A stretch of DNA of 64,000 bases from Hymenobacter nivis. GTDB taxonomy: Bacteria > Bacteroidota > Bacteroidia > Cytophagales > Hymenobacteraceae. Of this stretch, positions 27,575 to 30,069 are shown piece after piece (position 1 is the first letter of the stretch; every line of letters starts with the position of its first letter). A program made the translations under genes and the position numbers. The DNA lies in assembly GCF_003149515.1 (NCBI RefSeq), contig NZ_CP029145.1, positions 868,001 to 932,000 on the forward strand, written 5' to 3'. The notes beneath the pieces were generated by a model that saw only the letters and a list, made by a program, of their open reading frames with translations, searched no databases and had not been told where the DNA came from.

Positions 27575-28057
27575 ACTGAGTTGCTGCTCGTCGAGCGCAT
27601 CGGCGATGCGCTGGCACTGCCGGTACACCTGGCTCTGGTTGACGCGCAGGCCCAGCAACTGCTCGACCAACCCGGGCACCTGGCCAAAAACGGTCAGTGT
27701 GCTGAGCAGGGCCAGCTTCTCCTGCAGATAGGGGCTGGTACGGCTGCCGAGCACGGGCCGGCTGAAGGCGTGGCCAACGGCTACTTCAATCTTGCCGTAG
27801 CGGCTGTGGATACCGTTTTTTTTCGCTTGTCGGCCGGTACCGGCCCGACCGTCTGCTCCAGCACCTGCCGGCCCATGCCGGTCCAGACCTGGTTAAATTC
27901 TTTCTCAAACGTGTAGAAGTCGGCGTGGCGCGCTAACGCGCAGAGGGCCTCGAAACGGGTTTCAGCCAGGGCCAGGTAGTCCGCTTTGGTCATCCTCATG
28001 GCGGGGAATGGTGTTAGTCAAAGATAGCACCCCCAAACGAAGATTTGAATTACACCC

Positions 28058-28424
28058 ACGTCTCACTTACATCGCATACGCGATAAATGCCAGAAAGTGA
28101 AATGCGTTCTAATAATAATTTAAGGCGGTGGTCCAAAGCAGGATGATACCGGACCTTTAGTTTGTTAATTAAGTCAGCTTAAAAACACGTCAGGAAAGCT
28201 GGAAGGACGAATATTCAGACATCATAAATTGAGTGAAATACCAAAATCATCTCGCTTTGGACCACCGCCTAATTTATTAATTCCTTATCAGCGGTACTGT
28301 TAAACCACGATTGGCCTGCCGCTACAAATTGGCGCCAACAATTCGTGCATTGATAATTTTGCTTGCCATGATGCGTATGGCCGTTCTTCTTAATGTGTCG
28401 GCTTTGACAGTCGGGGCAATTCAT
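28058..28424 (-). pseudogene. IS1 insA remnant (IS1 copy 3), split by a miniature element
   Basis: From ATG 28424 the zinc-finger half of InsA reads MNCPDCQSRHIKKNGHTHHG and YQCTNCWRQFVAAGQSW, then DKELIN. The 146-base miniature element 28124-28269 intervenes. Beyond it the same frame goes on as LLLERISLSGIYRVCDVSET, which is the InsA helix-turn-helix, until cut by the end of ISKra4-like copy A at 28057. No insB remains. IS1 copy 2 inserted just upstream at 28435. Confidence 0.85.
28124..28269. mobile_element. IS1-type miniature element (146 bp)
   Basis: Perfect 16-base ends GGCGGTGGTCCAAAGC and complement, very like the ends of IS1 copies 1 and 2 (GGCGGTGGTCTA...). The interior is AT-rich and non-coding. 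It is flanked by TAATTTAA and TAATTTAT, an 8-base duplication with one change. Excision restores the insA frame on both sides. Confidence 0.9.
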
Positions 28425-29297
28425 ATCGTTTTTTCTCAAAGATGGCGGTGGTCTAAAATAAGATGGCCTACGTATATTGGGGTGTAATTCAAAACTACGC
28501 GTTGGGGTGGTAACTTGGGGTATTCACTACCTGCTTATTCCCAATGACGAAAGAAGCCTACCTGGCGCTGGCCGCCGCCCAATACGACGAGTTGCGCGCT
28601 ATCGGCCAGGAGCCGGATTTTTACACGCTGGAAGAGAAGTTTGACCAGTTGTGGACAGCCCTGGGGCGTTCGGTGCTGGAACAGACGCTGGGGCCGGTGC
28701 CGGCCAACAAGCAAAAAAAAACAGTGTCCAGACCCGGTTCGGGCGCGTAGCCATCGCCAAAACGAACCCGTTCAGCGCCCCGGTGCTGGGCTCGCGCACC
28801 AGCCCCTACCTACAGGCCAAACTCGTGTTGCTGGCCGCTGAGCACGTCTTTGCCCAGGTGCCGCCGCTGGTCGAATCGCTGCTGGGCATCCGCGTGAGCA
28901 CGACCCAGGTTTACCGCCGCACCCAGGCCGCCGCCCAGGCCCTACCCGCTGCCGGCCTGGATGCGCCCTGCCCGGGGGTGAGCGCCGGGCCGGGGCCGGT
29001 CTATGGCATGGTCGACGGCTCGATGCTTTTCACCGACACGGGCTGGCAGGAGGTGAAAGTGGGTCGCGTCTTCCAGCACAGCGCCCCGGCGAGCGCCCCG
29101 GCGAGCGCCCCGGCGAGCGCCCCGGCCGGGACGATGGGACCGTCGCAGTACGTGGCGCAGCGCGGGCCCTTCGCCACCTTCACCCAGCGTTTTGAGCAAG
29201 TCTTGCCGCCGGACGCGGCGGCCGACCAAGTGTTTGTTACCGACGGGGCGCAGTGGATTCACCGCTGGTTACAAGACGCTTACCCCCATGCCACCCA

Positions 29298-30069
29298 GGC
29301 GGTGGTCTATTAGCGAGTGAGGTTGTAAATTAGCGCATGGTTTATACGCAACACTTATGTGCCCGCTGTGGTAGTGAACACATCCGCCGCAATGGCACGC
29401 AGGGTGGTCAGCCTAAATACCAGTGCAAGGCGTGCGGGTATCAGGCACGGTTTATACCAGCGGCCGTGGCCAAGGCGGCACAGTATGCGCAGGTGGAAGC
29501 CTTGCTCACCGAGCGTAACTCCCAACGTAGCATCGTGCGCGCCACCGGCGTGGCACGGATGACCATCGCCAAGCTGATAAAAAAAAGCGGCCTTGGACTC
29601 GCCCCGGCTGCCGCGTCGCCGGACGAAAAAGGCCCAACGCCGGAAACCTGAAGCCCTCGAACTTGACGAAATGTGGACCTTCGTGGGCCGGCGCACGTGC
29701 AAAGTCTGGTTGTGGCTGGCCGTTGAACGGGCCTCGCGCCGCATCGTGGCCTGGGTGCTGGGTTGCCGGGGAGCCGCCACGGCCTGGCGCTTGTGGGCCG
29801 CGCTGCCGCGACGCTACCAACGCCACTGCCGCTACCACACCGACCAGTGGGAAGCCTACGCCAAGGTCTTGCCCGCCCACCAGCATCGGCCTCATCCCAA
29901 AGGCAGCGGCAAAACCAATATTGTTGAGGCTATCAACTGCTCCTTACGCCAGCGCTGCGGGGTATTGGTCCGCAAATCCTGCTCCTTTAGTAAAAGTTTG
30001 CGCATGCACACGGCTCGCATCAAGATTGTGATTGACAATTACAACCTCACTCTTCAATAGACCGCCGCC
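29298..30069 (+). mobile_element. IS1 copy 1 (772 bp), complete
   Basis: Ends GGCGGTGGTCTATTAGCGAG and the inverted ...CAATAGACCGCCGCC, flanked by the exact 8-base duplication GCCACCCA (29290-29297, 30070-30077). Inserted in the transposase gene of ISKra4-like copy B. Confidence 0.95.
29337..30060 (+). CDS. IS1 transposase InsAB' (frameshift at A8)
   Basis: InsA begins at ATG 29337 (MVYTQHLCARCGSEHIRRNG, zinc-finger CxxC...CKAC) and has the helix-turn-helix NSQRSIVRATGVARMTIAKL. At A8, 29579-29586, a -1 shift leads into InsB: ALELDEMWTFVGRRTCKVWL, the Asp in YHTDQWEAYAKVLP and Glu in TNIVEAINCSLRQRCGVLVR, ending NYNLTLQ at 30060. Both parts are intact and the ends and duplication are complete, so this is the best candidate for a recently active element here. 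Confidence 0.9.

Follow-up and report, generated by a model that had tools for sequence, protein, structure and literature searches.

The window analysed here, 64,000 nucleotides of Hymenobacter nivis (G000:C1:868001-932000, part of a genome represented by a 5,027,597-bp contig, 5.03 Mb), contains the remnant of an IS1 insA gene that is interrupted by a 146-bp segment. What is this segment, and what brought it there? A reading of the sequence alone had taken it for an IS1-type miniature element, a non-autonomous IS1 derivative, at 28124-28269, and these coordinates proved exact. The segment, to which no strand is assigned, is bounded by the 16-bp perfect terminal inverted repeats that had been described: the left repeat (28124-28139, + strand) starts GGCGGTGGTCCAAAGC, and the right repeat (28254-28269, - strand) is the exact reverse complement of GGCGGTGGTCCAAAGC. 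Pairing of the ends stretches to 25 nt at 92% (23/25) when one flanking base per side is included. The 8-base near-duplicate target was also recovered, with TAATTTAA on the left (28116-28123) and TAATTTAT on the right (28270-28277), both unstranded and identical at 7/8 positions. No ORF of 40 amino acids or more was found inside 28124-28269, in agreement with the absence of coding content noted earlier, a weak statement for a length of 146 bp.

The sequence-only reading had proposed a search for more copies with the same ends and interior. Our DNA search of the own genome gave 12 matches, comprising 11 full-length copies (97-100% identity, the window's copy included), which we call family A, and one partial match (L012), which shares the ends and the 146-bp length but has another interior and belongs to family B, described below. 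All 11 copies of family A stop at the same two positions while their flanks differ, far above chance. The case that would have overturned the earlier reading, a larger element with other ends, is thereby ruled out, since both boundaries are common to all 11 copies. Ten copies, including that in the window, are 99-100% identical to the query and L011 is 97% identical; this near-identity suggests that family A was amplified recently. Duplications of 8 bp are perfect at six of the 11 copies (L002, L003, L004, L007, L008 and L009), match at 7/8 positions at the window copy and are absent from the remaining four (L005, L006, L010 and L011). The element at 28124-28269 thus has attributes by which prokaryotic MITEs are recognised: it is short and without coding capacity, and has terminal inverted repeats, a target duplication and multiple dispersed copies.

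The insertion site was examined through the interrupted gene. The 5' part of the degenerate insA, a remnant of the host IS1, lies at 28270-28439 on the - strand, where InsA zinc-ribbon models match. Alignment with a paralogue and the reading frames show the same remnant continuing beyond the MITE at 28057-28123 (- strand; KLLLERISL...), a stretch that includes the left target copy. The remnant scored 54 bits with the NCBIfam IS1/IS1595 zinc domain (above the cut-off of 28), 22 bits with Pfam Zn_ribbon_InsA (below the cut-off of 26.1) and 45 bits with the NCBIfam IS1 transposase model (below the cut-off of 100). Across 120 genomes of the genus only one other place resembled it, at 92%: locus L072 in the own genome (about 4214314-4214545), which aligns with 66 bp to the left of the element at 95% and with 173 bp to its right at 92%. 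L072 is an empty site in which TAATTTAT is present once, and because its octamer is TAATTTAT, the single mismatch of the duplication must sit in the left copy, at its last base, 28123. The 11 copies, the duplications and the empty paralogous site together indicate that a real MITE, and no piece of a larger element, was inserted in a dead insA.

The empty site also bears on what the insertion did. In L072, KELIN and KLLLERISL are in different frames, with stops nearby; judging from these frames, insA was probably broken before the MITE arrived, so the insertion of the window copy probably had no effect at its landing place. It had been suggested that excision would fuse ELIN and LLLERISL into a normal InsA sequence. 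This does not hold: removing the element with one target copy would take away 154 nt (1 mod 3), and a frameshift is present at that place even in the empty paralogue.

Other mobile DNA borders this site. Upstream of the insA remnant, and pointing away from it, lies a 36-bp fragment (28444-28479, + strand) that is similar to the IS1g left end and stops at an ISKra4-type end. The remnant and the MITE are enclosed by 37-nt inverted repeats (81%; 28021-28057 and 28480-28516). These repeats are apparently the termini of two ISKra4-type elements, of which the right was recognised by a weak ISKra4 match below cut-off and the left by eye.

The element is predicted to fold into a strong hairpin (z -6.5 as DNA, -6.6 as RNA), and in a rough scan eight of the 11 family-A copies overlapped no ORF of 80 amino acids or more, although the same was true of only three of 11 in family B. 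Such features could belong to an intergenic repeat that is structured for some host function, as an RNA or a terminator, and is not a mobile element. However, the outer part of the hairpin is the terminal repeat itself, and the duplications and the empty site demonstrate insertion; a host-role origin is contradicted by the empty site. Assignment to an RNA family was also rejected, because the Rfam matches were to microRNA hairpins alone and lay far under the gathering scores. We consider this explanation extremely improbable, while some family-A copies may have been put to secondary use by the host.

IS1 is a textbook insertion sequence, and the PF03400 profile gave 19 matches in the own genome. 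The full-length IS1 elements, with insA and insB, carry the same outer end GGCGGTGGTC as the MITE and make 8-bp duplications; they differ from it in length (772-784 bp, against 146 bp), in having insA and insB, and in their dissimilar interiors. The element that we call IS1a lies in the window itself (29298-30069, + strand), looks intact, is 772 bp long and has a perfect 8-bp duplication. Five 772-bp copies are present, with duplications that are perfect at three and have one mismatch at two; in both of the copies inspected the insA and insB frames are open, and an A8 run lies where the frame changes. At two copies (3854283-3855054 and 3881199-3881970) the duplications differ only at the base beside the + strand left end, which is also the position of the mismatch at the window MITE.

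Resemblance to the IS1 copies, which the sequence-only reading had seen in the ends, is confirmed for the outer 10 bases; over 26 bases the ends of the intact IS1a agree with family-A ends at 15-16, and the subterminal bases differ. IS1a is therefore a possible but poorly matched helper. MITE ends have GGCGGTGGTCYAAA in common with the ends of two other elements, IS1b and IS1g. The best match over 26 bases is the right end of IS1b, with 22/26 to the A right end and 19/26 to the A left end. Scored against the closer of the two A ends, IS1b reaches 21-22 at its right end and 19-21 at its left, and IS1g 21 at its left end and 18 at its right.

Three copies of IS1b were found (3732424, 3772008 and 4424064), one of them without its left end, and an 8-bp duplication was present at one of the two copies checked. 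All three have the same stop in insA and the same stop in insB, from which it seems that the broken form has itself been copied. The copy at 3732424-3733367 exceeds the 784-bp copy by 160 bp and carries a palindromic insert, probably of another repeat family. In IS1g (1727520-1728297) the frames are open and the left end agrees at 21/26; its right end has diverged, and a duplication is absent. Since the ends of IS1a agree at only 15-16 of 26 bases and the better-matched IS1b copies have stops in both frames, no intact helper with well-matched ends was found among the IS1 elements of the own genome. Candidates for the helper are an IS1 since lost, an IS1g-like element, or IS1a acting on unlike ends.

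The description of the element as an IS1 derivative stands as far as its miniature size and IS1-type ends are concerned; descent from IS1 is not supported. When the interior of A was compared with IS1a, IS1g, IS1b and the L072 locus, 76, 57, 176 and 57 of 200 shuffled sequences, respectively, scored as well, and the interiors of families A, B, C and D were all at shuffle level with these four sequences (at best 33/200 as good). An origin by internal deletion of an IS1 of the own genome was accordingly rejected, and we use the name 'IS1-ended' for these elements instead of calling them deletion derivatives of IS1.

A transposase other than that of IS1 could also leave 8-bp duplications. IS1595 is an example: a MITE assigned to this family, with 8-bp repeats, 25-bp ends and a length of 165 bp, is on record from Haloquadratum walsbyi (PMC3852290), and the own genome has one IS1595-family transposase gene. 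In a simple inverted-repeat scan round that gene the only pair found, of 15-of-20, does not resemble GGCGGTGGTC and is not flanked by a duplication, whereas MITE-type ends are carried by the full-length IS1 elements of the same genome. We regard movement by such an enzyme as very improbable. The segment at 28124-28269 is best read as a miniature, non-autonomous element whose ends are of the IS1 type, given these ends, the 8-bp duplications as found on the genome's IS1, the dispersed near-identical copies, the lack of coding capacity and the empty paralogous site. We hold it to be likely, at a probability of roughly 0.9, that the segment belongs to a 146-bp MITE family mobilised in trans by IS1 transposase.

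In such a reaction the IS1 transposase InsAB', made by frameshifting and supplied in trans, would bind both terminal repeats, pair the two ends and link these to a target rich in A+T, staggered by 8 bp; the 8-bp duplications would then arise on repair. The enzyme was presumably borrowed from a full-size IS1 element, and the copies may still be mobile.

Family A is accompanied by other MITEs with the same ends. A 14-base end pattern occurred 49 times in the own genome, compared with twice for the reversed control. These 49 ends comprise 21 of family A, 15 of B, two of C, three of D, four of IS1b or IS1g, one in the fragment at window position 28444, and three outside these families (100473, 1048774 and 3709583). 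Only elements with one exact end or more could be recognised, which makes the numbers for B, C and D minimum values. Family B (146 bp) has at least 11 copies, with perfect duplications at eight, one mismatch at two and no duplication at one. Family C (126 bp) has at least two copies, both with perfect duplications. Family D (147 bp) has at least three, one with a perfect duplication, one with two mismatches and one with none; a further D-like element of 136 bp came from a pattern scan at 90-150 bp. The families with these ends show the same behaviour: when A-D were pooled, 17 of 27 copies had a perfect duplication and 3 of 27 had one mismatch. The duplicated octamers were 78% A+T (125/160), compared with 43% (2319/5400) in flanks 101-200 bp away. 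The left end of IS1g is 8 bp away from one D-family MITE (G000:C1 1728297-1728452), which is flanked on both sides by AGATTTTT.

DNA matches to family A were found in four of the 120 genus genomes, the own genome included. The other three, G025 (146 bp), G034 (146 bp) and G096 (160 bp), have relatives at 76-81% identity; the duplication is perfect in G034, and none is present in G025 or G096. The bacterial family was represented by 204 genomes from six genera; the end pattern at 128-158 bp matched in five of them, all Hymenobacter. With shorter ends at 90-150 bp, 10 of 120 genomes matched; the reversed control matched 5 of 120, so a few chance matches are to be expected, and three of the ten, G093 (95 bp), G095 (95 bp) and G107 (121 bp), were excluded because their core is not followed by AAA and by eye they resemble coding sequence. 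Exact ends spaced 150-210 bp apart occurred in one of 120 genomes, as a single 160-bp copy with an internal near-repeat. The 128-158-bp form was found in five stretches of an 84,980-species collection (from which the own genome is possibly left out), all from Hymenobacter: H. frigidus twice, H. caeli, sp. BT770 and isolate RYN_300. Of the seven distinct elements listed for other genomes, three are flanked by perfect 8-bp duplications. MITEs of 94-154 bp with GGTGGTGGTC ends were found in none of the 204 genomes, and the element matched none of 72,556 plasmid records. On several contigs of G011, a genome similar to that of H. caeli, 13 paired D-type ends, matched by hand from 34 rows, gave lengths of 147 bp (8 pairs), 148 bp (2), 149 bp, 146 bp and 128 bp; by eye these elements are GC-rich double hairpins.

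The lengths of the different types are 146 bp (A, B and E), 145 bp (BT770), 147 bp (D), 138 bp and 126 bp (C and F). The recurrence of 146 bp in A, B and E and of 145 bp in BT770, on elements with the same ends, could mean that all four descend from a single ancient MITE of about 146 bp and did not arise separately. A weak likeness of interiors points the same way for A of G025 and the BT770 element (5/200 shuffles as good; 3/300 when ungapped), and another links C and B (2/200). Many pairs were tested, however, and most between-family comparisons were at shuffle level. D and the 138-bp type are homologous, with related interiors (0/200 shuffles as good); the interior pairs beyond these three were no better than shuffles. 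A common ancestor of A, B, E and the BT770 element is thus conceivable but somewhat doubtful.

The same lengths were compared with the DNA helix. At 10.5 bp per turn, 126 bp corresponds to 12.0 turns, 138 bp to 13.1 and 145-147 bp to 13.8-14.0. A Rayleigh test against this period gave R=0.84 and p about 0.0035 for eight types, p about 0.02 with the 146-bp types counted once, R=0.72 and p about 0.004 with the variants of 128, 136 and 160 bp added, and p about 0.06 for three lengths alone (146, 126 and 147). Lengths near 126, 138 and 145-147 bp are thus a weak hint of helical phasing, which we treat as a hypothesis because the test was post hoc and the independence of the types is doubtful. Helical periodicity has reportedly been seen for short elements in work on IS50. 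On DNA so short, both ends would have to face the same side for synapsis, which could limit lengths to whole turns. That the IS1-ended MITEs of Hymenobacter are constrained in this way, and are moved here by an IS1 with differing subterminal bases, we regard as unlikely.

Short non-autonomous elements with the ends of a full IS are known from other systems. MITEAba12 (PMC6382973) is of this kind, and differs in its length of 113 bp, its 9-bp duplications and its ends, which are identical or nearly identical to those of ISAba12. The MITE of H. walsbyi mentioned above, assigned to ISHwa6 and present in seven copies, is likewise short, and differs in its partner family, IS1595, and in its archaeal host (PMC3852290). 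In the part of that paper's table of new MITEs that was covered, one element has 8-bp repeats and IS1595 as its partner, and none of the rows names IS1. A term search of a 2024 review of prokaryotic MITEs (PMC10969869) gave no instance of the whole word 'IS1', and the passages covered in PMC2246112 contain nothing pertinent. Two further papers link Sulfolobus MITEs to ISC1733 and ISC1058 (PMC3718332) and a 187-nt MITE to ISL3 (PMC11448079). No named IS1-type MITE family was found in the literature searched, which excluded ISfinder and most subscription papers and is no proof of absence; nor did that literature yield a report of Hymenobacter MITEs. IS1-based MITEs therefore seem to be rarely described, as the sequence-only reading had remarked, and the family at 28124-28269 is new as a family and known as a kind. 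With several families of IS1-ended MITEs alongside IS1 elements both intact and dead, this genome is well suited to asking which bases at the ends are required by IS1 transposase, whether a MITE can be mobilised by a partner whose ends differ, and whether the helicity of DNA limits the length of short elements.
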